DNA of 64,000 nt. Source: Candidatus Bathyarchaeota archaeon (GTDB lineage Archaea; Thermoproteota; Bathyarchaeia; Bathyarchaeales; SOJC01). The DNA is taken from NCBI GenBank assembly GCA_029882535.1, contig JAOUKM010000003.1, positions 1 through 64,000 on the forward strand, written 5' to 3'. The position numbers and the translations under genes were made by a program. The notes under the pieces are model-generated. The model was not told where the DNA came from. It saw only the letters and a list, made by a program, of their open reading frames with translations, and ran no database searches. Below are positions 6,261-32,123 of the stretch, piece after piece; the stretch's first letter is position 1; each line of letters starts with the position of its first letter.

Positions 6261-7973
6261 CTACCTTTCGAGTGCAGCTGCTGATGCTTGTATATAGATT
6301 TTTGCGAATTTCTTTATGAGATCCTTTTGGCTGTAGACAGCGCTGCTTATTTTGAAGAAGTTCTTCATTCTTTCGCTTTCCAAGCCTACTCCAATTATTA
6401 TTACGCCCTTCTTTTCTAATGAACTGATACTTTCCGACAATGCACTGGACATGTTTGGATAACCATATGGCCATCCATCAGAAAGAACTAACAAGAACCT
6501 TTGCGCATCAAATCTCCGCGCAAGAATTTTGCCTGCAACTCGAATGGCATCAGGCATATACGTTAAGCCATCGAATTTTAGTCCTCCAATCCTCGCGCGA
6601 ACCCTTCGCGAATACGCCTCTGAAGCGCCTTTTAATATGTAGAAACGATCGCTAAAAGCAAAGAATGTCCACGAACCTGGATCCATCAAAAGTTCCTTTG
6701 TAGCTTCAGCAACACAAATTGCCAGTGTTCTGCTAAGTTCACCTTTAATCTTCATGCTTGCGCTTACATCAAAGAGAACTCCCCAAGCGAAGCTACTGCT
6801 CAGATATTCATTCTGCACGAAAACATCTGTTCTCGGACTTCTACTTGCAATCTTCTGTATAACTTCAGGCATGTCTAGTTGTCCCATTTCTTTTCTAGGA
6901 TCTTCGTCTAAGGCGTCCTGAGCCACTCTAAGACTGTCAAGAAGTCGCCGACTTCCCCCTCTAAGCAAAGCCCTTGCTCTTTGATACTGCGTATAGTCTT
7001 CCTCGGGAAACTCAATAGATTTGAACTTAGTCCCTTCCACATATTTCTCAATTCTTGTCAATATTTTTTTTTCTCGAGCTCTCTGGTGAGTCCATGAGTC
7101 GAACGCTTGTGAAGCCTCTGCGTCTACTTCTTTTCCCCAGTATGAGTCTATCGGTTCTTTCGACGGGTTAATCCCGCTTAGAGTTTCCAGAGATTTTTTG
7201 AAGATTTTTTCGATTTCAGATGGTATCTCGTATTGAGAGAACACTGTACATGGGCCAATTTGTTCAGTATGTTGCAGAGAGGGAGCTTCTAATATAGGGC
7301 CGTGTGATTCGAGAATTTGGGTTATGTCGTTTTTTGTCTCGTTAAAAACCTCGCTGAGTTCGGTTTCCTTTCCAGTCAGCGATGTTATAATTTTTTGTTT
7401 AAGTGAACTCAGTTTTATAGCCAACTGGTTGACTGCATTCTCTTCTTTTGGGCGAAGCGCTCCTTTTACAATACCTATGTTAATCTTTGACAATAAAGCC
7501 GCCATTATTCGAGTGGCTGGATTGAAAATTCTTTCAGCAGGTTTCATCTTTGCAAAGGCAAGCGAATTTGCAAAGGCCAAGTCGGCTAGTTTGTCATGGT
7601 GCTTTAGTGAAATGTAGGCGTTGACGTAAGTGTCGTTGACCAGAGACTCGGAGAAAGATTCAACAAGTGTACGTTTTGATGACGATGAAACGGTGTTTTT
7701 ATAGTCAATTGGTATCAATGTGTGTGTGGTTAGATGGAAAACGCAGGCTCTGAATAATCTTCCCGCTTTAGCTTTTCCATGGTCTGCTGGAAATTCGTAT
7801 CCTAAGAAAGATATAGTTTCTTCTTCTGACATGGAAGGCATAGGTAACGTTATGTTGAAGCCGGCTTCATTCCGCGTGAGAGTTGGTTGCCGAAGTTTTG
7901 GGTCTACACGGATTCTTGTTTTCACTTTGTCTTCTTGGAAGGAGAGAGACCAGGCGTAGTCAAGAAATCCCAT
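6261..7973 (-). CDS. VWA-domain protein paired with MoxR-type ATPase
   Basis: A 570-residue protein. Its C-terminal 175 residues are a von Willebrand A domain with an intact metal site: D402-x-S404-x-S406 (DVSAS), T471 and D499 (LSDG). The long helical N-terminal part is like that of CoxE/NorD/CbbO-type proteins. In those systems the VWA protein brings a MoxR-family AAA ATPase to its target for remodelling or cofactor insertion. The ATPase gene lies 32 bases upstream on the same strand, so the two form an operon. No obvious target enzyme is adjacent. The nearest non-operon genes are the SecB-like protein and LonB. Confidence 0.88.
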   Translation of the reverse strand: MGFLDYAWSLSFQEDKVKTRIRVDPKLRQPTLTRNEAGFNITLPMPSMSEEETISFLGYEFPADHGKAKAGRLFRACVFHLTTHTLIPIDYKNTVSSSSKRTLVESFSESLVNDTYVNAYISLKHHDKLADLAFANSLAFAKMKPAERIFNPATRIMAALLSKINIGIVKGALRPKEENAVNQLAIKLSSLKQKIITSLTGKETELSEVFNETKNDITQILESHGPILEAPSLQHTEQIGPCTVFSQYEIPSEIEKIFKKSLETLSGINPSKEPIDSYWGKEVDAEASQAFDSWTHQRAREKKILTRIEKYVEGTKFKSIEFPEEDYTQYQRARALLRGGSRRLLDSLRVAQDALDEDPRKEMGQLDMPEVIQKIASRSPRTDVFVQNEYLSSSFAWGVLFDVSASMKIKGELSRTLAICVAEATKELLMDPGSWTFFAFSDRFYILKGASEAYSRRVRARIGGLKFDGLTYMPDAIRVAGKILARRFDAQRFLLVLSDGWPYGYPNMSSALSESISSLEKKGVIIIGVGLESERMKNFFKISSAVYSQKDLIKKFAKIYIQASAAALER

Positions 7974-16281: not shown

Positions 16282-16354
16282 AGCCCGGTGGTGTAGCGGT
16301 CAAGCATGACGGGCTCTGGACCCGTTGACGAGAGTTCGAATCTCTCCCGGGCTA
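16282..16354 (+). tRNA. tRNA-Gln (anticodon CUG)
   Basis: Cloverleaf with acceptor AGCCCGG (16282-16288) pairing CCGGGCT (16347-16353), discriminator A and an encoded CCA (16355-16357). The anticodon stem ACGGG/CCCGT encloses the loop CTCTGGA, anticodon CUG. The T arm is GAGAG-TTCGAAT-CTCTC. The gene is overlapped in antisense by the 3' end of a ribbon-helix-helix-like ORF. Partial copies of its 3' half lie at 25517-25563 and 30986-31001, so it looks like an integration target. Confidence 0.95.
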
Positions 16355-16521
16355 CCAACCACACTGCTTCCACAATTATTTCCTGAGTAGACGCTTTGAA
16401 ATTGGTTAATCAAGTGTTTCAAGTGGTTTTCACACGTTTTAGAAAGGTTGAAGCCTATTTCACGCGTTTTTTTAACTATTTCAGCATCAAGATAAAGGAC
16501 AACATTTCTCTTGTGCGGCAT
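16300..16521 (-). CDS. ribbon-helix-helix-like small protein reading into antisense tRNA-Gln
   Basis: A 73-residue ORF. The first 45 residues (KRNVVLYLDAEIVKKTREIG, then FNLSKTCENHLKHLINQF) have the strand-helix-helix pattern of CcdA/CopG-type antitoxin or DNA-binding proteins found often in archaea. The last 17 residues (GSPGEIRTLVNGSRARHA) are simply the antisense translation of tRNA-Gln, so the gene stops inside the tRNA. This is expected when an element integrated at a tRNA carries a gene whose 3' end is completed by the attachment site. Dimeric DNA binding is inferred from the pattern. No toxin or integrase gene is adjacent. Confidence 0.65.
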   Translation of the reverse strand: MPHKRNVVLYLDAEIVKKTREIGFNLSKTCENHLKHLINQFQSVYSGNNCGSSVVGSPGEIRTLVNGSRARHA

Positions 16522-16589
16522 TTTCTGTTTGCAACCCCTTGCGCGCGTGGGATTGCAGGTTCAATGTTATAAATTTGGTGCTGCTGAAT

Positions 16590-17939
16590 TTAGTGTTTTG
16601 ATTTGCTTTTTCTATAGATTTTTGTTGCAAGCAGAGTTGCTGTCATGAATATTGGTAGAATGATGAGTGATGGAAACTCTGGGATGATTATGACTTCTTG
16701 TGTTGAATGACTATAATTGAAGTATAGATAGCTGTGTGTGCTGTTAGAACATGGTAAAGGTTCTGGAGACGGTAAGATTTCTGTGCCATTGACAAACACT
16801 CTGAAGGAGTCATTCATCAAGGCCGTTGGTATGCATATTCTGCAGAAGCCAGTAGTGCCATCCTCACCAGTAACATTGAAACTTATCGCAGTGCTATTGA
16901 ATTGGAAATCTGAAATTGAAGAATTGCAGATAACTTGAGCGCTGTATTCTGAAGTGATATCGAATTCAGAAAATGCACCCACTAGAGGAAAGTTGTCAGT
17001 GTTATCTGCATCTAATATGAATGTAGAATCACCTATTCCATCATGGCTAAGGTCAGCATCAGTATATTCGCTCCAAAAGTTTCCACCAGAGGGGTAACCA
17101 TCATCCCAGAAGTTGGCGTACCCGCTAGCTAAGATAAGTACCTGCTCAGTATTGTTGAAAAAAACGTTATGATAGAACCTGTTGTTCCTGGAATACCCAA
17201 GTGTAATGCTTCGCCAGTTGTTCGTCATGTTGTTCTCGAAGATGCTGTTTGAGTCTGCGTTGTATATATGTATACTCACAGTGTTTGCCATAAGGCAATT
17301 TCCAGATATGATGTTATAAGTCGCTTGGTGGTGAATGTCAACACCAACGTGGTTGTTTGTTATGGTGTTATTTGACATGCTCGTGTTTCTTGGAGACCCA
17401 AAAATACCAACATAATTATCGACAAGGCGATTTCCAAATATATTGCAGTAGCTTGTGCTGCTAAGGTAGATTCCCGCCTTAATAAGAGTGCCTTCCCCTC
17501 CACTTCTCTGTATTGTGAAACCTGTAACATTCACGTGGTCTTGGGTTATGGTGACAACATCCCCCGTCATGTTACCATCAATAATTGTGGTTCCTCTATT
17601 CTCTCCATGCAACATCAGGGATTTATTAACTGTCACATGCTCATAGTAGATCCCTTCGTCAACAAAGATTGTATGTCCATTCGAAGTTTCAGGAGCATTT
17701 ATCGCTTCTTGAATAGTTATATAGTTTAACCAAGTGTCAAGGTTGTGAACTGGATAGCCATTAGGTGCTTTTACCTCAGTTACATGAAAATTTGTTGCTA
17801 AAATTAAAATGCTGGGAAACAGTATTGATATTATTATTACGGAAATTACGTTCCTCAAAACTAATGCTCTCCCATTTTTATATATTTTCGTTTTCAAGAT
17901 AACATTTGTGGATAAAAGTTCTATCACACAGCAATCCAA
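16590..17939 (-). CDS. secreted parallel beta-helix (NosD-like) surface protein with PEF-type anchor
   Basis: A 449-residue exported protein. A hydrophobic signal segment lies at about 28-50; the true start may be inside the first 25 residues. Residues about 65-310 carry repeated N/D-rich rungs (for example MSNNTITNNHVGVDI and NIISGNCLMANTVSI) of a right-handed beta-helix like NosD and pectate-lyase-type proteins. A short beta domain follows. The C-terminus is PEFPSLIILPIFMTATLL followed by basic residues, a membrane anchor and sorting signal of archaeal surface proteins. A related protein is at 58361-59890. The ligand is unknown; carbohydrate binding is common for the fold. Confidence 0.85.
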   Translation of the reverse strand: MDCCVIELLSTNVILKTKIYKNGRALVLRNVISVIIISILFPSILILATNFHVTEVKAPNGYPVHNLDTWLNYITIQEAINAPETSNGHTIFVDEGIYYEHVTVNKSLMLHGENRGTTIIDGNMTGDVVTITQDHVNVTGFTIQRSGGEGTLIKAGIYLSSTSYCNIFGNRLVDNYVGIFGSPRNTSMSNNTITNNHVGVDIHHQATYNIISGNCLMANTVSIHIYNADSNSIFENNMTNNWRSITLGYSRNNRFYHNVFFNNTEQVLILASGYANFWDDGYPSGGNFWSEYTDADLSHDGIGDSTFILDADNTDNFPLVGAFSEFDITSEYSAQVICNSSISDFQFNSTAISFNVTGEDGTTGFCRICIPTALMNDSFRVFVNGTEILPSPEPLPCSNSTHSYLYFNYSHSTQEVIIIPEFPSLIILPIFMTATLLATKIYRKSKSKH

Positions 17940-17971
17940 TGTGTTTAAACCATCACTTTAGAGAGATTGGT

Positions 17972-18012
17972 GAGAACTGAGAGGCTGAGGAGAGGCACTG
18001 AGGAGACAGAAG
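17972..18012. repeat. purine-rich repeat P, copy 1
   Basis: Contains GAGGAGAGGCACTGAGGAGA and then CAGAAG. It matches copy 2 (20207-20233) at 25 of 26 bases and the left part of copy 3 (23983-24024) at 21 of 22. It begins immediately after the stop codon side of the UDG-like gene at 18017. Confidence 0.8.
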
Positions 18013-18016
18013 AGAT

Positions 18017-18622
18017 TCATCGAATTTTCATGAAAGCGCTATCTATCTCACTGGTCCACTTTCTGGTTAGTCCTCCAGGAAAGGGACATACGATTACACG
18101 ATAGCCTGATAAGTTTGTATCATAGTCTTGTGTTATTCTGTGTTGGACCAATTCTTCGAAATCAGCAGTTTGCTCAAGCGCATATTTGGCTGTATTTCCA
18201 AGTATGAAAACAGTGTTAGGTTTCAGTTGCCTGATTTCTTTCAACAAGAATCTTTGTGAACAGGTTTTGGCAATCCTATACAATACTTTCTTTTTTATTG
18301 ATTTATTTAACCTACATTTGATTGTGTCAATAAGAAAATAGCTTCTCTCTTTGAAGACCTCCAGCTTGTCCAAGTTCAGCCTTGACAGGACTTCCGTTCT
18401 TAGATTAATCCGCTTCTCAGCAACTGGATTATAGAAATAGCGTTGTTTGCCATTCCATGGCGGAGATTCAGCGACGAAGAGAACATCCACTTTTCCAGGT
18501 TTCCAACTTCTCTCCACATCAAATTGAACGTAGGGCTTCTGATCAGCATTGAATTTATCATAACTAACTAATTTCAGATCTATGCATCTCTTACATTTCC
18601 GAATTTCATCAGACATAGTCAT
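18017..18622 (-). CDS. uracil-DNA glycosylase superfamily-like protein
   Basis: A 201-residue cytoplasmic protein. An N-terminal CKRC pair is followed by the UDG-type first motif (VDVLFVAESPPWNG), a central strand-helix (TVFILGNTAKYAL) and the late motif VCPFPGGLTRKW in the place where UDG-fold enzymes have HPSP. The usual family-4 iron-sulfur cysteines are not complete, so it may be a UDG-fold protein of another activity. The gene is bracketed by repeat P directly after its stop and repeat R 18 bases before its start. R supplies TATA-like sequence. It is the first of three such single-gene units. Confidence 0.7.
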   Translation of the reverse strand: MTMSDEIRKCKRCIDLKLVSYDKFNADQKPYVQFDVERSWKPGKVDVLFVAESPPWNGKQRYFYNPVAEKRINLRTEVLSRLNLDKLEVFKERSYFLIDTIKCRLNKSIKKKVLYRIAKTCSQRFLLKEIRQLKPNTVFILGNTAKYALEQTADFEELVQHRITQDYDTNLSGYRVIVCPFPGGLTRKWTSEIDSAFMKIR

Positions 18623-18639
18623 AATAAGATTCTCACTCT

Positions 18640-18717
18640 TTTCTACTTTCTAACATAGTCTAGGAAATATAAAACTCTAAGATTTTTCTTTAACTTAGAA
18701 ATTATAAAATATAAAAC
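18640..18717. repeat. AT-rich repeat R, copy 1
   Basis: Starts TTCTACTTTCTAACATAGTC and ends near CTTAGAAATTATAAAATATA. It aligns along its length with copies 2 (20796-20889) and 3 (24501-24596). It has outer inverted TTTCTAA...TTAGAAA words, so it could fold into a long hairpin, and TATA-like words on both strands. It lies between the UDG-like gene and the methyltransferase at 18740. Confidence 0.8.
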
Positions 18718-18739
18718 CAGTTGTAGAGTAGAGAGTGGC

Positions 18740-19279
18740 ATGAAATCTAGCAGATTAGGATATGGGTCACATTCTTTTCTTAACGAGTACATCAGTAGGA
18801 ATGAATGTAAGAAGATCATGGAGATTGGAGTTGCAGATGGTGAGAATGCCATGACAATGGTTAAGGTCGCTACTCGAAACTGTTCGCCTGAAGAAGTGGA
18901 GTATTACGGGTTCGATCTTTATGAAAGCAACAGAATGGAGCAAGTTAGGCAGAAATTAAAGGAGACACGGTGTAAGTTCAAGCTTTTCAAAGGGGACTCT
19001 GTTGAAACTCTTACTAGAGTGTTGAAAACCTTGCCTAAAATGGATTTGATCTTCATTGATGGAGGTCATTCTTATGAAACAGTGAAGAGTGATTGGGAAA
19101 ATTCAAGATCTCTTATACACGATGAAACGGCAGTCTTCTTTCACAACTATGATTTCTCAGGCGTCAAAAAGATAGTCGATAACATTTCCCGAGAAGAATA
19201 TCAAGTGAAGACAATCCATCCTTCAGCGGATTGTGATATGGCCTTCGTTAAGAAGAAAGTCCATAGAGAAGCAAGCTAA
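18740..19279 (+). CDS. class I SAM-dependent methyltransferase-like protein
   Basis: A 179-residue Rossmann-fold protein of the Methyltransf_24 or cephalosporin-hydroxylase-like type. Motif I is IMEIGVADGENAM, an acidic residue follows in YYGFDLYES, and the fourth motif is MDLIFIDGGHSYETVKSDWE, where IDGGH(S/T) is typical of this group. AT-rich repeat R just upstream provides TATA-like words, giving a short leader. The substrate is unknown; such genes often modify sugars or small molecules. It is followed by another methyltransferase 121 bases downstream. Confidence 0.78.
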   Translation: MKSSRLGYGSHSFLNEYISRNECKKIMEIGVADGENAMTMVKVATRNCSPEEVEYYGFDLYESNRMEQVRQKLKETRCKFKLFKGDSVETLTRVLKTLPKMDLIFIDGGHSYETVKSDWENSRSLIHDETAVFFHNYDFSGVKKIVDNISREEYQVKTIHPSADCDMAFVKKKVHREAS

Positions 19280-19400
19280 GAAAGAGGCAAGCATTAACCT
19301 TACGAAATGCTACACTAGACCTTTTCTTTCGATTTTTTCTTGCGCGCTCGCAATAACGTATATTCATAGGAGACAGTAATCTAGTGATCGGTAGAAAACT

Positions 19401-20201
19401 ATGTCAGTAAGAGAAAAGGAGATGGCTGAACTCCTCGCAAAAACCCATCGGGAGGAGAGACTTTCAGCTGTAACAGCTTATATTAATCCTGATGTTTCTG
19501 CGATTTTGGACTTAGGTTGTGGAATTGGTGCTTTGACAACTCGATTAGCTGAGAGGTTTCCTTCTGCGCTGATAATTGGTGTTGATCGGTCAAAGTATCT
19601 TATTAGTAGGTTGCAAAAAAAGGAGAATGTTTTGACAATATTGGGAGATATACCAGCTGTACCTTTTAAGAACCGTTCTTTTGATCTTGTAGTAGCTGTC
19701 CAAGTTCTTCATGAGATATTCCATTTTAAAGGAGTTCATGCACTCACTAGGACGTTTCAGAGGATTTTTGATTTATTGAAGAAGGACGGTGAGCTAATTA
19801 TCTTGGACCATTTCAATCCAGGTGATGTCTCAATCTCCTTTAAACTCTCTGAAGAACTGAGAAAGAAATTACGTGAATTCCAATCGAAGTTTAAGCCACG
19901 TAAGATAAATTATCATGATCTAGGTAAAGGTTGGGTCAGAAGCAGTATGCGTGATTTCTATGATTTTATCACTAAAATCTGGGCTTTGAATTCTGGACTT
20001 GAAGAAGAGGAAATGAGTGAAACTCATACACCATTCACTCGTCAGGAACTTGTGGATTTTGTGCAAGAAGCTGGGTTTAAAGTAGTACATGTTACTAGCA
20101 TCACTGCTATAGACAGGAATTTAGAGCACTACGGCGTAACTGTTGAATGGACCTTGAACCTTCCAGACAGGCACATCATGTTGATAGCAAAGAAAAGTTG
20201 A
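19401..20201 (+). CDS. class I SAM-dependent methyltransferase
   Basis: A 266-residue methyltransferase. Motif I is ILDLGCGIGALTTRLAERF, motif II IIGVDRS, and motif IV FDLVVAVQVLHEI with a following LKKDGELIILDH. The C-terminal half has extra helices. The fold resembles UbiE/Methyltransf_11 proteins; the substrate is not clear. It runs on the same strand as the methyltransferase at 18740. Its stop is followed at once by purine repeat P copy 2. Confidence 0.85.
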   Translation: MSVREKEMAELLAKTHREERLSAVTAYINPDVSAILDLGCGIGALTTRLAERFPSALIIGVDRSKYLISRLQKKENVLTILGDIPAVPFKNRSFDLVVAVQVLHEIFHFKGVHALTRTFQRIFDLLKKDGELIILDHFNPGDVSISFKLSEELRKKLREFQSKFKPRKINYHDLGKGWVRSSMRDFYDFITKIWALNSGLEEEEMSETHTPFTRQELVDFVQEAGFKVVHVTSITAIDRNLEHYGVTVEWTLNLPDRHIMLIAKKS

Positions 20202-20206
20202 ATTGT

Positions 20207-20233
20207 AGAGGAGAGGCACAGAGGAGACAGAAG
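20207..20233. repeat. purine-rich repeat P, copy 2
   Basis: GAGGAGAGGCACAGAGGAGA then CAGAAG. It differs from copy 1 at one base over 26. It ends 7 bases from the stop of the GrpB-like gene at 20240. Confidence 0.8.
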
Positions 20234-20239
20234 TCTTAT

Positions 20240-20770
20240 TCACTGTGTTTCTGTTTCAGCTCTTGCTTTGGCAACTATGGATTCAATGAATGATGTTTTT
20301 GCTTCAGTGTAGCTTTCACGATCTGAACCATACTCTCTTGCCAGTCTTTTCTTCAATTTGTGATAGTCTTGAGCGACTTCTGGATGAGTTCGAAGATAGT
20401 CACGGAACAGTAAATGTCTTTTCCAAAAATTACTTGATAGTTCAACCATATGCAGGTGATAATGTTGTTCCTTTGGTGGTTTGCCCTTGTGGAAATATCG
20501 TCTTTCAGGTATTGATTCTTCGTATTCCGGAACATACTCGTAGCCAATACTTTCAAGAGGTCCAATACACTTGTGGACGTCTTCTAGATTTTTGATAGCA
20601 ACAGTAATGTCGATAATCGGTTTGGCACCTAAACCAATGACAGCAGTGCTTCCTATATGTTCGATTCCAACAACAAAGTGTCCTATGACATTAAGGATTA
20701 GACGCTTCTCATTATCAAACAATGTAAGCCATTGAGGATTATAGTCCACAATTTTGACTGGTCTTTTCAT
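20240..20770 (-). CDS. GrpB-family (UPF0157) nucleotidyltransferase-like protein
   Basis: A 176-residue protein of the GrpB family, related to the nucleotidyltransferase fold. It starts with the family signature PVKIVDYNPQWLTLFDNEK and continues with IEHIGSTAVIGLGAKPIIDI, where GS and the paired Asp-type residues mark the active region. Most family members read GSTAVPGL; here V-I-G-L. Some family members modify nucleotides or antibiotics, but the role here is unknown. It is bracketed by repeat P after the stop and repeat R 26 bases before the start, the second single-gene unit. Confidence 0.88.
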   Translation of the reverse strand: MKRPVKIVDYNPQWLTLFDNEKRLILNVIGHFVVGIEHIGSTAVIGLGAKPIIDITVAIKNLEDVHKCIGPLESIGYEYVPEYEESIPERRYFHKGKPPKEQHYHLHMVELSSNFWKRHLLFRDYLRTHPEVAQDYHKLKKRLAREYGSDRESYTEAKTSFIESIVAKARAETETQ

Positions 20771-20795
20771 TTCTCTAAACTCAACAGAAAAACGA

Positions 20796-20889
20796 CAATA
20801 AAAAGTTTCTAAGTTTATACTTTCTAACTAGTATAGAAAATATAAAATTCTAAGGTTTTTCCTTTAGTTAGAAATTATAAATTAGAAAA
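20796..20889. repeat. AT-rich repeat R, copy 2
   Basis: Opens with CAATAAAAAGTTTCTAAGTT and runs to TATAAATTAGAAAA. The first 33 bases match copy 3 with one difference. It contains inverted TTTCTAAC/GTTAGAAA words. It lies upstream of the GrpB-like gene. Confidence 0.82.
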
Positions 20890-21119
20890 TTAAAGTGTAA
20901 ATACACGTTTTGAACAGTCCTGTAGGTTACGTACACCGAGGAAATGAAGAACATGAGAGAAGATTGGGAACACGACAAACTGACTTTAAAACGAGCAACA
21001 TTTATTCTACAATAGTGAAATAATGTAGAATGAACCACTAAGATTAATTATTCAGTGGAGTTATGACAAACATTCCTGAAAAAGATAGCGCGCGGCCGCA
21101 CATCAAAAGGTAGTGAAAA

Positions 21120-23081
21120 ATGCGGAAACCACTTTGGGTACCTTCTGAAGAGCGTATAAAAGAGGCGAACATAACACGGTTCATAAATCTTGTCAACGGA
21201 AAATACAATCTTCAAATAGACTCTTATGATAAACTTCATAGATGGTCTATAGAAAACGTATCAGATTTCTGGGCAGCTATGTGGGAATTTGGGGGAATAA
21301 AAGCTTCCCAAAAATATGAGACCGTAGTGGATGATTTAGGCAAGTTCCCTGGTGCAAAATGGTTTGCTGGGGCAAGATTGAACTTTGCAGAGAATCTTCT
21401 GAGATGTAGAGACGCCCATCCCGCCTTTATATTTAAAGGAGAAACCAAAAAATCTTCCAGAATGACCTACACGGAACTGTACAATTCTGTAGCACGTTTA
21501 GCTAGATCATTACGCAAAATGGGTGTTGCCGTTGGAGATCGCGTGGCAGCCTATATGCCCAACCTTGTGGAAACCGCCAACGCTATGCTTGCAACTACAA
21601 GTATTGGCGCTATATGGTCTTCTTGTGGTACTGAACTGGGTCCAAAGGCAGTTCTTGATCGTTTTGGTCAAATTGAGCCTAAAGTTTTGTTCACTGTTGA
21701 TGGATACTACTACAAAGGGAAGACGTTTGGCGTTTTGTCAAGAGCTGAGGAAGTGGCAAAAGGAATATCTTCAGTAAAGAAAACTATTGTATTTCCTTAT
21801 GTTGAAGAAAAACCCCATATTGTTTCTATCCCTAACTCGGTGCTTTATGATGATTTTGTATTTCAAGAAGAACAGCGAGAGATTTCATTTGAAAAGCTGC
21901 CTTTTGATCATCCAGCATATATCATGTTTTCCTCAGGCACAACTGGTAAGCCAAAATGTATGGTTCAAGGAGCTGGGGGTATTCTCATCAATCATCTAAA
22001 AGAGCTGATACTTCATACTGATCTAAAACGTGATGACAGAATATTTTACATAGCAACTCCGAGTTGGATGATGTGGAATTGGCTACTGGGCTCTTTAGCT
22101 GTAGGCGCTACCCTAGTGTTGTACGATGGCAACCCCAATTACCCAGATTGGAGCACCATGTGGCGACTAGTTCAGGACGAAAAAATAACCATCTTTGGTT
22201 GCAGCGCAAGCTACATCAACTATCTCAAAAGTGTGGATGCTAAGCCAGCTAAGGATTTTGATTTGTCTTCGTTACGAGAAATTTCTCAGACTGGTTCTCC
22301 TCTTTCAGCCGAAGGATTCGAATATATTTACCGAAAAATTAAAGAAGATTTGCATTTCAACTCTATTTCGGGAGGCACAGATATCAATGGTTGTTTTGCT
22401 GCTGGAACCCCTATTCAACCTGTATATGCTGGTGAATTGCAGGGTCCGGCTTTGGGAATGAATGTGAAAGCATATGACGAGAAGGGTAATAGCGTGGTTG
22501 ATCAACAAGGAGAACTAGTCTGTGAAGCTCCCGCTCCCTCGATGCCTCTTTATTTCTGGAACGACCTAGATAGCAAGAGATATAGAGATGCTTACTTCAG
22601 CATTTATTCAAATGTTTGGCGGCATGGTGATTGGATACTGATTCACAGCGACACTGGTGGAATAACCTTCTTAGGGCGTTCTGATTTTACCTTGAAACCC
22701 TCTGGAGTGCGCATTGGTCCGTCGGAAATATATAATGTGGTGGAAAGATTTGAGGAAATTGCTGACAGCATGGTTGTAGGGCAAGATTTGAAGGGGGATC
22801 AACGCATTATTCTCTTTGTTAAACTGGCTTCAAGATTTCAATTAACAGACGAGTTAAAAAATAAGATTAGAAAAACGCTGCGCAAAGAGGCGTCTCCTAG
22901 ACACGTCCCAGCTCTAATCATCGAAACGCCAGATATTCCATACACTTTCAGCATGAAGAAGGTTGAGAGTGCGGTGTCGAATATAGTGAATGGGAGACCA
23001 GTTACAAATAGAGATGCTTTAGTTAATCCGGAATCGTTGGATTTTTACGAAAGAATTCTTTCCGAGCTTCAAAAAGGATAA
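21120..23081 (+). CDS. acetoacetyl-CoA synthetase (acetoacetate-CoA ligase)
   Basis: A 653-residue acyl-CoA synthetase that activates acetoacetate, or a related short keto acid, with ATP and CoA. The N-terminal ACAS-type segment (WVPSEERIKEANITRF, then DFWAAMWEF) is typical of acetoacetyl-CoA synthetases. The AMP-binding loop is IMFSSGTTGKPKCMVQG. The adenylate motifs and the C-terminal Lys domain (ETPDIPYTFSMKKVE) are present. AAGG stands about 10 bases before the ATG. It stands alone on the + strand. It links ketone-body or polyhydroxybutyrate-like carbon to acetyl-CoA metabolism; the exact acid is inferred from family. Confidence 0.92.
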   Translation: MRKPLWVPSEERIKEANITRFINLVNGKYNLQIDSYDKLHRWSIENVSDFWAAMWEFGGIKASQKYETVVDDLGKFPGAKWFAGARLNFAENLLRCRDAHPAFIFKGETKKSSRMTYTELYNSVARLARSLRKMGVAVGDRVAAYMPNLVETANAMLATTSIGAIWSSCGTELGPKAVLDRFGQIEPKVLFTVDGYYYKGKTFGVLSRAEEVAKGISSVKKTIVFPYVEEKPHIVSIPNSVLYDDFVFQEEQREISFEKLPFDHPAYIMFSSGTTGKPKCMVQGAGGILINHLKELILHTDLKRDDRIFYIATPSWMMWNWLLGSLAVGATLVLYDGNPNYPDWSTMWRLVQDEKITIFGCSASYINYLKSVDAKPAKDFDLSSLREISQTGSPLSAEGFEYIYRKIKEDLHFNSISGGTDINGCFAAGTPIQPVYAGELQGPALGMNVKAYDEKGNSVVDQQGELVCEAPAPSMPLYFWNDLDSKRYRDAYFSIYSNVWRHGDWILIHSDTGGITFLGRSDFTLKPSGVRIGPSEIYNVVERFEEIADSMVVGQDLKGDQRIILFVKLASRFQLTDELKNKIRKTLRKEASPRHVPALIIETPDIPYTFSMKKVESAVSNIVNGRPVTNRDALVNPESLDFYERILSELQKG

Positions 23082-23490
23082 CTCAAAGAACCCCTCGCGT
23101 GCAAGCTTGAGGCATTAAAATAAGGGTTGATTTCTCCACCAGAGAGCAAACGCGCGCCTACTTATTAGTAGTTGTGCGCACGAATCTTAGCTACCTATTT
23201 TCTTCTTAGGAGATCACCTTCATATATGCGCATGCATGCGCACACGCTCTTTCCAATACCAAGTTTTAATGATTTAGGTTTTCCCTTGCAACTTCTCCTT
23301 ATAGTCTTTCCATTGGGTTTTAACATAAGGTCCCAAACTTTTAATATCTGAAACTCCTACAAAATCTCTCAGAGCTGAGCTAACTGCCTTTGCATTCAAG
23401 AATTCCTTTCACGTCTTCTTTTGTTTGATTAGCGCGTATTATACCTTAGAGTTCAAGGATGACAGAAAAAAGGGAATTTAGCTTTTCGCT
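23082..23490. other. intergenic region with repeat remnant and palindrome
   Basis: No gene seen. It holds a degenerate copy of the TGGAGA(T)ATC element at 23120-23150 (minus orientation), a CGCGCGCC tract at 23151 and a perfect 16-base palindrome TGCGCATGCATGCGCA at 23227-23242. Confidence 0.6.
23120..23150 (-). repeat. TGGAGATATC element, degenerate copy
   Basis: On the minus strand it reads TGGAGAAATCAACCCTTATT, matching the core TGGAGATATCACCC with a changed tail. No tRNA-like end is recognisable. Confidence 0.4.
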
Positions 23491-23946
23491 TTATTCTATT
23501 CCCCATCGTTTCGTAATCTTGACCATAACGAAGATTACGAAAGCTACGATAATGAAGGTTATCAACGCTACTAAGAAGTGCCCCACTAGGAAGCTTTGGC
23601 TGGCAACTGGCAATTCGATAGTTGCTAAGTTATCTAGTCCAGGTATAGCAAGGCCTATTATTGGCATTATTAGGTCCGAAACGAGTGCTTGAACTAGGTT
23701 ACCTAGATAAATGCCTATAATGAAAGCAACGGCAAGACCCATAACCTTGTACTTCGATATGAAGTTCATGAACTCATTCCATAAGCCTTTCTTTGCTGGT
23801 GGAGACGGTGCCGGCGTCAACAGTTCACGTATCTTCTTGAGTTCCTGTAACATCTCATCTTCTTTTGGCAAATTTTTCCCCAGAAGACCACTTTTCGACG
23901 ATTTTTCATATAAGTTGTTCGGCTTATAACGTGTGCCATACATCAT
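23491..23946 (-). CDS. mscL: large-conductance mechanosensitive channel MscL
   Basis: A 151-residue pressure-release channel of the cell membrane. The first 45 residues are a charged extension. Then come the amphipathic start WNEFMNFISKYKVMGLAVAF, the first membrane helix (IIGIYLGNLVQALVSDLIMP), a short extracellular loop and the second helix (FLVGHFLVALITFIIVAFVI). The C-terminal bundle is short. The likely start may be an internal Met; the MscL part proper begins near residue 52. It is transcribed away from the HIT gene; repeat P copy 3 lies just upstream of its start. Confidence 0.9.
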   Translation of the reverse strand: MMYGTRYKPNNLYEKSSKSGLLGKNLPKEDEMLQELKKIRELLTPAPSPPAKKGLWNEFMNFISKYKVMGLAVAFIIGIYLGNLVQALVSDLIMPIIGLAIPGLDNLATIELPVASQSFLVGHFLVALITFIIVAFVIFVMVKITKRWGIE

Positions 23947-23982
23947 CCTAGTTTGCTCAGGCTATCACTATAGGAAGACTAT

Positions 23983-24024
23983 AGAGAACAGAGAGGCTGA
24001 GGAGAAGCAGAAGCGAGACAGAAG
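23983..24024. repeat. purine-rich repeat P, copy 3
   Basis: Contains GAGAACAGAGAGGCTGAGGA and ends GAGACAGAAG. The left 22 bases match copy 1 at 21 positions; the right part is more diverged. It lies between mscL and the HIT gene, 61 bases before the HIT start. Confidence 0.75.
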
Positions 24025-24085
24025 GGAGACTCTAAAATACAACTGTTTGAATATTGGCAAACTGATAATATTTGAGGTTTAAAAG

Positions 24086-24517
24086 ATGGATTATTGTGTT
24101 TTCTGTCGCATAGTGAAAGGTGTTGCACCTGCAAGCGTAGCCTATTCTGATGAAGACGTTGTGGCCTTTATGGATATTACACCCGTTAATCCAGGACACG
24201 TGTTGGTGATCCCGAAAGTTCATGCTGCACAACTATCTGAACTAAATCCAGAGATAGGGGCACATATGTTCAAAGCTGCAATGCATGTAGCAGAAGGTCT
24301 CAGGCGATCAGGAGTAAAATGTGAAGGAGTAAGCTTGTTCTTAGCTGACGGAGAAGCTGCATTCCAAGACATATTTCACGTTCATTTGCATGTGATTCCC
24401 AGATTCAAGGGAGATGGTTTTGGACTGAAATTAGGTCTTAATTACGGCTTTAAGCCAAAAAGAAAAGAATTAGATGAGATTGCTAACAAAATCAGGAAGG
24501 CAATAAAAAGTTTCTAA
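24086..24517 (+). CDS. HIT-family nucleotide hydrolase
   Basis: A 143-residue histidine-triad protein. N-terminal CVFC (C4, C7) is the zinc pair of the Hint/HIT branch. The core ends in FHVHLHVIPRF, the HxHxHxx active motif that cleaves nucleoside phosphoramidates or dinucleotides. The stretch PVNPGHVLVIPK is also typical. The last five codons and the stop lie inside the first bases of repeat R copy 3, so its C-terminus (AIKSF) is encoded by the repeat. With repeat P upstream it is the third repeat-bracketed single gene, here in the opposite orientation to the other two. Confidence 0.93.
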   Translation: MDYCVFCRIVKGVAPASVAYSDEDVVAFMDITPVNPGHVLVIPKVHAAQLSELNPEIGAHMFKAAMHVAEGLRRSGVKCEGVSLFLADGEAAFQDIFHVHLHVIPRFKGDGFGLKLGLNYGFKPKRKELDEIANKIRKAIKSF

Positions 24518-24596
24518 GTTTCTACTTTCTAACATGGTTAAAATCTTAGAATTTCTAAAGATCCTTCCTTTACTTAGAAAATAGATATTAGAAAAA
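24501..24596. repeat. AT-rich repeat R, copy 3
   Basis: Begins CAATAAAAAGTTTCTAAGTT and ends ATTAGAAAAAG. Its first 17 bases code the end of the HIT gene, stop codon at 24515-24517. It aligns with copies 1 and 2 and keeps the inverted TTTCTAA/TTAGAAA words. Confidence 0.8.
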
Positions 24597-24626
24597 GTGG
24601 GTACGCAATCAGTAGTATAACATGCG

Positions 24627-24911
24627 TTATGATTGAAGTTTTGGTGGTATCAGATATATGCGGAGTTGTCCTTTTGTAACCTTCAAATTTATTGTTTGGT
24701 CAACTTCACCTATTGCGGAAACAGCGAGTAGGTTTCGTATTCCGCCTTTTCTCACGCCTAAAACTAATTCAGCCGCATCTTTTGTCAATTCAACCTCAAG
24801 ATGAGTAATCTTCCATTGCTCAGAGTCGAATATGAACTCTTTCACTTTACCCACGTCCAAGTCTTCGCAAACAATTCTCTTTCCCAGTAATTCTCCACCT
24901 TTCATTTCCAT
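24627..24911 (-). CDS. PRC-barrel domain protein
   Basis: A 94-residue small beta-barrel. GELLGKRIVCEDLDVGKVKE, then FIFDSEQWKITHLEVEL, follow the PRC-barrel pattern, in which a conserved Gly-x-x-aliphatic loop begins the barrel and W/hydrophobic strands follow. Short stand-alone PRC proteins are common in archaea and are thought to bind RNA or protein partners. No operon partner is visible. It converges on the HIT gene with repeat R copy 3 between the two. Confidence 0.8.
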   Translation of the reverse strand: MEMKGGELLGKRIVCEDLDVGKVKEFIFDSEQWKITHLEVELTKDAAELVLGVRKGGIRNLLAVSAIGEVDQTINLKVTKGQLRIYLIPPKLQS

Positions 24912-25213
24912 GTTAATCGCAACCCAACTTTGTAGTCAAACTATAAAGAATTTTCTGGCTTGAACAGATAAGAATTCTGGATTTCAGATTCAATTTTATA
25001 CTGAACTATTATGCAAACACACTTTCACCTTACTCTCTATTTCTCTAGCAATACGTTGCCTCACAGTCATTAAATAGAAAATCCAATTAGTGCCATTGTG
25101 CTTGCGGTTCATCGCTCTCTTAGTGAAAGTGATTATAGAGCCCAAAGATATGGCCTTCCCTTCACAAATGCACGGCGTGAATCGCAAGCAAATCCATTCA
25201 AAGAGGTTTCAAC
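24912..25213. other. intergenic region, no supported gene
   Basis: A 63-codon open frame on the minus strand (24996-25187) has no ribosome-binding site and no recognisable family. I see nothing else. Confidence 0.4.
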
Positions 25214-25372
25214 ATGAATTCTAAAGCCGACACTATCCTCAAAGAATGTTCTCAATGTAGATAACAAGTAGTCATTAGTTGTGTGTGTCCATCTTGTAAA
25301 CTTCGAGTCTGCATGATTTGTGCGATAGAGAATGATTGGAAATGTCCGAAGCGCAAAATAGATTTGGTTTAA
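25214..25372 (+). pseudogene. zinc-ribbon protein remnant with in-frame stop
   Basis: From the ATG at 25214 the frame reads MNSKADTILKECSQCR, then TAA at 25262-25264. It continues in the same frame as QVVISCVCPSCKLRVCMICA then IENDWKCPKRKIDLV to a stop at 25370-25372. Four or more paired cysteines on both sides of the stop suggest a small zinc-ribbon gene broken by one nonsense change. It lies just before the tRNA-Gln fragment. Stop-codon read-through cannot be excluded. Confidence 0.5.
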
Positions 25373-25516
25373 TGGCTACCTATGTTCCGAAGCCTTACGT
25401 GTATAAATGCAAGTCTACCTCCTTCCAGCCTCTTTCTTCAACCTTGAGTACTCCCAAAAGTCAGCAACAGTATTGTCGATGTCATCTATAATGAAAGAAT
25501 TGCCTTGGCTGCTCTG

Positions 25517-25563
25517 GGTTCTGGACCCGCTGACGAGCGTTCGAATCTCTCCCGGGCTATCAT
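25517..25563 (+). repeat. tRNA-Gln 3'-half fragment (attachment-site relic)
   Basis: From the anticodon loop to the 3' end it matches the tRNA-Gln at 16282-16357: TTCTGGACCCGCTGACGAGC then GTTCGAATCTCTCCCGGGCT. There are only about four differences over some 45 bases. There is no 5' half, so it cannot be a tRNA. Such halves are left where a mobile element integrates into a tRNA gene. Confidence 0.85.
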
Positions 25564-25769
25564 CCCTGCCACACACATTTTTAAACAAATCTTAACTCTA
25601 AACCCAAACCTATTGTTAACAATGGACACTTTAGGGTGTCCATTTCTTAAGAAAGGTTAAAACTGCAATGCGTGCGCTAAATGCTTCGCAGTTATCCACA
25701 ATTACTATGCAAGGTTCCTCATCAAGGTAGATTTATAAGAAAGTAGAGTTGTGGGAATGTGGTGATTCT

Positions 25770-31531: not shown

Positions 31532-31623
31532 TGGGCCCGGGGCGATTTGAACGCCCGACCAACAGGTTTCTCGTCCGTGGCGATTATGAGCCTGTCGCTC
31601 TGACCGTGCTGAGCTACGGGCCC
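31532..31623 (-). tRNA. tRNA-Met (anticodon CAU), with intron
   Basis: On the minus strand the acceptor is GGGCCCG/CGGGCCC, discriminator A, no encoded CCA. The anticodon stem ACAGG/CCTGT encloses the loop CTCATAA, interrupted after position 37 by a 17-base intron (31568-31584), the usual archaeal site. The body matches elongator tRNA-Met rather than the initiator. T arm GGGCG-TTCAAAT-CGCCC. Confidence 0.92.
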
Positions 31624-31921: not shown

Positions 31922-32025
31922 GCCGCCGTAGCTCAGTCCGGTAGAGCAGCTGTCTCTGGTAGTGGTTTTATCAGGGGCTGAGGCTGTTAACCAGTCGGTC
32001 GTAGGTTCGAGTCCTACCGGCGGCG
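31922..32025 (+). tRNA. tRNA-Asn (anticodon GUU), with non-canonical intron
   Basis: Acceptor GCCGCCG (31922-31928) pairs CGGCGGC (32018-32024), discriminator G. The T arm is GTAGG-TTCGAGT-CCTAC. The anticodon loop is CTGTTAA. The 5' strand of the anticodon stem is split: GCTG at 31949-31952 is separated from the fifth base G31983 by about 30 bases, which must be removed to form GCTGG/CCAGT. So the intron lies inside the stem (position 30/31 or 29/30), not after position 37. Such sites are known in several archaeal groups. Confidence 0.88.
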
Positions 32026-32123
32026 CTTACACCATTATTTTCGCAAACCTGCGTCCGTGGCGATATGTTCATTCTGTTTTCTGAAGATTAGGGAAGCAAC
32101 ACTTCGTTCTTCCTTCTCTGACA

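Follow-up and report, generated by a model that had tools for sequence, protein, structure and literature searches.

The window, here the whole analysed stretch of 64,000 nucleotides at the start of contig JAOUKM010000003.1 of a Candidatus Bathyarchaeota genome (G000; 1.73 Mb in 83 contigs), contains a short reverse-strand open reading frame that runs into the antisense strand of a tRNA-Gln(CTG) gene and ends there (Table 1). The frame, designated int(N) below, consists of an RHH/CcdA-like domain (residues 4-40), a linker of about 14 residues and about 18 codons (16303-16357) that are coding and at the same time antisense to the tRNA; the preliminary description of this DNA had recognized the overlap, although its count of 17 codons was slightly off. 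That an RHH-like frame ends in antisense tRNA-Gln, as stated there, is borne out by ARAGORN, Rfam and Pfam; the CcdA family (PF07362) matches residues 4-40 at 27.1 bits (cut-off 22.4), over positions 1-37 of the 71 positions of the profile only. The RHH fold is a prediction from this Pfam match, and the AlphaFold model of int(N) contains two confident helices without a strand. PF07362 scores reached 27.1, 28.2 and 27.5 bits in three int(N) frames, and 24.9, 21.8 (just below the cut-off of 22.4) and 13.9 bits in three of the full-length frames described below.

Table 1. Features of the window, better-preserved split elements, and C-terminal integrase remnants at other loci.
Feature	Position or length	Strand	Remarks
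Candidate int(N), 73-aa ORF	16300..16521	-	ATG start, TGA stop within tRNA
tRNA-Gln(CTG), putative rebuilt host target gene (attL)	16282..16357	+	ARAGORN; Rfam tRNA 63.4 bits
50-bp direct repeat, attL copy	16311..16360	+	repeat search of window
TATA-like box (TTTATAACA)	16565..16573	-	44-52 nt upstream of int(N) start
Interval between repeats	16361..25515	.	9,205 bp repeat to repeat
Candidate int(C) stub	25415..25558	-	antisense-tRNA peptide and first post-att codons, then frameshift/stop
attR repeat copy, isolated tRNA-Gln 3' fragment	25516..25565	+	45/50 identical to attL copy
L222 element	3,225 bp between repeats		int(N) at one end, int(C) at the other; repeats 63 bp, 2 mismatches
L231 element	5,459 bp		tRNA-Phe; int(N) at one end, int(C) at the other; repeats 29 bp, 0 mismatches
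L241 element	5,332 bp		tRNA-Lys; int(N) at one end, int(C) at the other; repeats 44 bp, 0 mismatches
C-terminal integrase remnant, L035	3966-4061		
C-terminal integrase remnant, L223	2483-5413		
C-terminal integrase remnant, L224	7424-7546		
C-terminal integrase remnant, L225	6527-6640		

The second repeat copy is overlapped by a stub, int(C), that carries the same antisense-tRNA peptide as int(N) and is read in the same phase. Int(N) is 82% identical to residues 1-71 of an intact integrase of another locus (L035; E 2e-31), and the stub matches residues 57-106 of the same protein at 66% identity (tblastn with the intact integrase as query, E 1.2e-12); beyond the frame break of the stub, tblastn with L035 found no catalytic domain. 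The attR copy and the int(C) start together explain the isolated antisense tRNA end at 25516-25565, and the earlier suggestion that such ends are leftovers of similar gene ends thus proved correct for this one. Since int(C) is merely a stub here, the window alone would not prove a split integrase.

The interval between the repeats now contains largely chromosomal-type genes; by the annotator's reading they encode a beta-helix protein, a UDG-like protein, two methyltransferases, a GrpB-like protein, an acetoacetyl-CoA synthetase-like protein, and MscL, HIT and PRC-barrel proteins. The synthetase-like gene (21120-23081) is located elsewhere in the chromosome of all six relatives that possess it; the present content of the interval therefore need not equal the original cargo, and chromosomal genes have either filled or rearranged the interval or were captured. 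In genome G033, the synthetase-like gene lies about 1.1 kb from an int(C), a possible instance of gene capture. Parallel beta-helix surface-type proteins adjoin int(N) or int at several loci (window 16590-17939; L035 4149-5819; L070 8691-9899) and may represent recurrent cargo. Elsewhere in the window, two probable intron-containing tRNA genes occur at 31922-32026 (forward strand) and 31532-31623 (reverse strand), with Rfam tRNA scores of 53.8 and 58.4 bits; run without introns, ARAGORN missed the former and left the latter unassigned.

With the 45-residue domain as sole query, matches were obtained in 66 of the 151 genomes of the order, and three of these matches (L035, L039 and L044) read about 280 residues past the tRNA fragment. 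Three unsplit genes are open, namely L035 (351 aa), L039 (350 aa; also L206) and the more distant L176; L044, broken in its RHH part, is a fourth. The parts of the unsplit genes follow the order RHH domain, antisense-tRNA attachment site (att), SAM-like domain and catalytic domain, and the antisense-tRNA peptide inside the open frames of L035, L039 and L176 places the attachment site within the gene. Since the frame continues from the RHH domain and the antisense tRNA into an integrase, the open reading frame of the window is almost certainly the front of an integrase gene with an internal att; what was earlier termed a "DNA-binding-type gene" does not stand alone and is better understood as an integrase's N-terminal domain. 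In L035, L039 and L044, both PF00589 (Phage_integrase) and PF16795 (Phage_integr_3) score above their cut-offs; PF16795 reaches 40.3, 36.5 and 41.0 bits (cut-off 27), with PF00589 scoring higher in all three, and matches to the SAM-like core are weaker or accepted. L039 matches the archaeal XerA structures 4a8e and 5hxy by sequence, and the matches in NCBIfam and PHROGs are XerA-like and phage integrases. Among seven integrases inspected for catalytic motifs, the R box and the Tyr box are present in all, and box II has K in four and Q in three; the SSV-type catalytic pattern is given as R...KxxR...Y in the relevant passage of Badel et al. (2021; PMC8371274). The predicted structure of the full-length integrase (mean pLDDT 56.9) was too poor for use. 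On one chromosome contig (G029:C25), an unsplit open integrase (L035 5834-6889) and an int(N) (L048 10647-10781) lie 18 kb apart, an arrangement expected if two tandem-integrated elements had re-formed a whole gene at their junction.

Three further loci, all from Bathyarchaeia, preserve both halves of a split integrase at opposite ends of a short element (Table 1). In these three elements and in the window (4/4), int(N) and int(C) have equal phase at the repeat; joining the halves there yields open frames of 355 aa in L231 and 365 aa in L241, and, up to a decay stop, 139 aa in L222 and 103 aa in the window. The L231 and L241 intervals contain several small ORFs, and many int(C) starts at other loci carry antisense-tRNA peptides. 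These frames also bear on the possibility that a separate small RHH gene, for an excisionase or a regulator, stands beside the att of a classical pNOB8-type element, a thought encouraged by the frequency of small RHH proteins on archaeal elements (SSV1 record; parts of Makarova, 2014, PMC4158269). The possibility is very unlikely and for these loci refuted by continuous RHH-integrase frames, since the frame runs on into the integrase in the three open unsplit genes and is likewise continuous in L231 and L241 after joining at the repeat.

Further traces of integrase genes were observed in the window's own genome and elsewhere. The genome contains a second int(N), with a stop codon after nine residues, beside a tRNA-Pro(TGG) gene (L232, contig C18, about 6815-6904), and an int(C) frame that starts with an antisense-tRNA peptide (L228, contig C30, 10134-11054); no int(N) partner of the latter was found. 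Short C-terminal integrase remnants follow an int or int(C) at a distance of 0.5-2.4 kb downstream, with the strand unchanged and as many as three in succession (Table 1), and are possibly scars of stacked small elements. At several loci, int(C) fragments are stacked in this way 1.3-2.4 kb behind int(C).

Whether other members of the family end in tRNA genes had been posed as a question in the preliminary description, and many of them do. For the 39 close matches of the single-domain search (E<1e-9; fetched loci rescored, with 7 weaker ones of 46 dropped), a complete antisense tRNA lies no more than 250 nt downstream in 27, or in 31 if the T-loop motif is counted. A set of 40 more distant CcdA-like matches was rejected as a control because 29 of them also end in antisense tRNAs (32 with the T-loop motif); ending in tRNAs at a like rate, these are family members and not controls, and weak PF07362-like matches and the upstream side of the loci took their place. 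In the named GTDB collection, searched with patterns from nine close members, all 26 close relatives are Candidatus Bathyarchaeota MAGs; a tRNA follows in 21 and, with the T-loop motif, in 22, and the other four comprise two full-length integrases (L206, L218) and two frames without tRNA or motif (L198, L216). A profile search across the phylum covered 398 genomes, and the following counts refer to 81 of its 91 listed matches. At E<=1e-8, 43 of 55 matches run into an antisense tRNA (47 with the T-loop motif), a count that is not fully independent, as the profile was built partly from members known to end in tRNAs, but with which the single-protein search and the nine-member patterns agree; the tie between the 3' end and site-specific integration at a tRNA, already proposed for the window, thereby emerges as a trait of the family. 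Between 1e-8 and 1e-6, the tRNA is present in one of five matches (two with the T-loop motif); above 1e-6, in a class that is mostly VapB-like, in two of 21, both int(N)-like. Eight of the 55 strong matches lack both tRNA and T-loop motif; two of these lie at a contig end, and the rest are decayed, displaced or unexplained.

The mirror test on the upstream side gave no tRNA (0/81). Antisense tRNA DNA is often open in some frame, a point in favour of a chance origin by which an unrelated open frame happens to extend into the tRNA; the probability of such an origin is negligible, and it is refuted by the conservation of the domain across genera and classes and by the contrast between downstream (43/55) and upstream (0/81) sides.

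The target tRNAs belong to at least 13 isotypes, plus Phe, with ARAGORN isotypes uncertain for intron-containing tRNA calls. Strong matches also occur outside Bathyarchaeia (for example L142, L151, L155 and L157), so that the tRNA-end trait is not restricted to this class; within Bathyarchaeia, RHH-type int(N) is common. The phase of the T loop is constant for Gln (5/5) and His (4/4), nearly so for Thr and Pro (4/5 each), and mixed for Ala and Gly (three values in four loci each). A constant tail frame was rejected as proof of a functional tail on account of the mixed phases in Ala and Gly, which indicate that phase reflects the integrase frame of each target lineage and not one conserved tail.

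The Pfam label itself, with a PF07362 score above the cut-off, could be taken to indicate a genuine antitoxin of the CcdA/VapB type, one partner of a toxin-antitoxin pair, with the end of its gene overlapping the tRNA by happenstance. This identity is extremely improbable. The CcdA match stays within the first 37 of 71 profile positions, and no toxin gene follows, the next feature downstream of int(N) being the tRNA; antitoxin-type PF07362 genes of the phylum, by contrast, have a PIN-domain ORF at -14 to +6 nt in all eight cases tested, and the weak matches end in a tRNA in only two of 21 cases, the int(N)-like ones. For the family as a whole, the full-length fusions, the att duplication and the VapB/PIN contrast rule out an antitoxin.

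Related genomes provide occupied and apparently empty versions of the window's integration site. Of 13 family genomes searched, 12 have the tRNA-Gln(CTG) gene next to one and the same TFB gene, and the thirteenth has a paralogue only. Int(N) is present at six of the 12 TFB/tRNA-Gln sites, whole in G000, G041 and G021 and 5'-truncated in G014, G029 and G033; no RHH frame was found within about 1.1 kb of the site in G037, G053, G057 and G045, and the two remaining sites either read N and are unreadable or end at a contig edge. The sequence that flanks the window's attR on its far side did not turn up next to these empty sites, which are therefore candidates and not base-exact empty sites.

The duplication of att, the occurrence of both halves in one frame, intact counterparts and recurrence at many tRNAs are all present in these sequences, and the ORF at 16300-16521 is almost certainly the int(N) of a tyrosine integrase of the suicidal (SSV-type) kind, whose N-terminal domain is an RHH (CcdA-like) one. 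As long as the element is free, its complete integrase gene would comprise the RHH domain, the linker, att (antisense of the tRNA 3' half), and the SAM-like and catalytic domains, and would be transcribed from the predicted promoter that now stands above int(N). The integrase would recombine the internal att with the 3' half of the host tRNA gene; integration would restore an intact tRNA and cut the integrase gene, locking the element in. Int(N) and its promoter would remain beside the tRNA, reading into it, and int(C) would land at the opposite end, next to the second copy of the tRNA 3' fragment. The window's int(N) is still open, and its int(C) would have decayed to a stub. This sequence of events reverses the earlier proposal that integration completes the gene, since the gene would be whole in a free element, or where two copies lie in tandem, and integration would cut it; the accompanying idea that integration swaps the tail is trivially true, in that the codons past the crossover come from the host tRNA, and otherwise does not hold. 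That the enzyme catalyses recombination and that its split halves are largely inactive is likely by analogy with SSV1, SSV2 and pTN3, for which catalysis and poor activity of the halves have been described (work summarized in sections of the review by Badel et al., 2021, PMC8371274, and in Cossu et al., 2017, PMC5495485). Going by the domain itself, the RHH part may bind DNA, either at arm or att sites or at its own promoter, and dimerise.

A variant of this interpretation accepts the integrase origin of int(N) and adds that the RHH protein is retained and working after integration, for example by repressing the int promoter or by keeping further elements out of the same tRNA; we consider this addition unlikely. 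The promoter-like box is left on the int(N) side, TATAACA occurring in 16 of 22 upstream regions (counted by eye), and the RHH domain is still open in most close members, but broken int(N) are frequent. Transcription of int(N) has been reported for pXQ1/XQ2 in a passage of Badel et al. (2021; PMC8371274), a review that terms the halves inactive pseudogenes. An intact int(N) pair from related genomes differs by 13 synonymous and no non-synonymous changes, in contrast to three synonymous and nine non-synonymous changes in a 5'-truncated pair; yet the intact pair lies in a stretch of excess divergence (24 differences per 210 columns, compared with about 10 in the surroundings), and one of its copies is closer to an intact integrase of the other genome of the pair (five synonymous changes). 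Conversion from live integrases can explain the 13:0 pattern on both grounds, and the counts, suggestive of post-integration selection on int(N), are spoiled by this likely conversion. The wider proposition is equally doubtful: archaeal suicidal integrases with a detachable RHH front would form a large class that is as yet uncatalogued, each integration leaving a self-contained, promoter-bearing RHH repressor gene at the tRNA; the left-over Int(N) would stay active, bind att arms or the int promoter and protect the tRNA from further elements, and many a "CcdA antitoxin" of archaea would be such a protein.

For the preferred reading, a split integrase with an RHH front, several consequences follow. 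Odd small ORFs with an antitoxin-like head and a tRNA-antisense tail are explained as split-integrase halves, and an RHH frame running into a tRNA becomes a simple marker of integrated elements in Bathyarchaeia. The detachable front of suicidal integrases can differ wholly from that of SSV1, and could work alone after the split; an RHH front that could act alone makes the persistence of self-destroying integrases a testable question. Genes annotated as "CcdA" in archaeal proviruses may be misnamed; the CcdA gene of an archaeal provirus was interpreted as an antitoxin in a 2024 paper, in the portion available to us (PMC11705971).

The splitting itself is known, and the RHH front on a split integrase is apparently new. 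The partition mechanism of integrases is documented (sections of PMC8371274, PMC3293823 and PMC4158269), and an N-terminal moiety that had originally gone unannotated is reported (in an excerpt of PMC4158269). None of the words "ribbon", "RHH", "CcdA" and "antitoxin" occurs in the main text of the review by Badel et al. (2021; PMC8371274), and the available text of a paper on Bathyarchaeia viruses (PMC10848311) mentions integrases and no split gene. In the main-text passages of freely accessible papers that were searched, no mention of an RHH or CcdA domain linked to a split archaeal integrase was found, which is weak evidence of absence. Three scans of IMG/VR yielded no relative; in phage and plasmid collections, none of the matches listed covers the RHH domain, only the catalytic and core parts being matched (19/19 records; best 20 of 252).

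Compared with known systems, int(N) shares the N-terminal RHH half of CcdA/VapB antitoxins (PF07362), but lacks their toxin-binding C-terminal half and a toxin gene, and its frame enters a tRNA or an integrase instead. The catalytic domain resembles XerA and XerC/D, which provide the best NCBIfam match (NF040815, 105.9 bits); this score is far under the 220-bit cut-off, and the RHH domain and the internal att are additional here. The pNOB8-type integrases of Sulfolobus plasmids are 27% identical over residues 77-350; their match does not include an RHH domain, and their gene is not split on integration (passages of PMC8371274 and PMC3293823). The closest parallels are found with SSV-type integrases (SSV1, SSV2, pTN3/TKV4, pT26-2). 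As in these, the integrase gene contains its own att, near residues 53-75, comparable to the SSV1 record, where the integration site at 1735-1778 falls within int (961-1968) at about residues 64-78; int(N) adjoins the tRNA and int(C) marks the opposite end, the tRNA 3' half is the target, PF16795 is matched, and many tRNA targets are used per family, as described for pT26-2 in part of Badel et al. (2021; PMC8371274). Box II differs in part, with Q instead of K in some of the integrases described here. In the sequence comparison with SSV-type integrases, for which SSV1 was used, similarity to SSV1 Int is confined to residues 78-331 (hhalign probability 95%, 26% identity; BLASTP E 0.001); the front of SSV1 Int is PF07935 (117.7 bits), a domain that neither L206 nor the int(N) tested contains, and its place is taken here by a PF07362-like RHH front. 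Unlike the SSV-type integrases, those with an RHH front occur in Bathyarchaeia and in several further lineages of this phylum.
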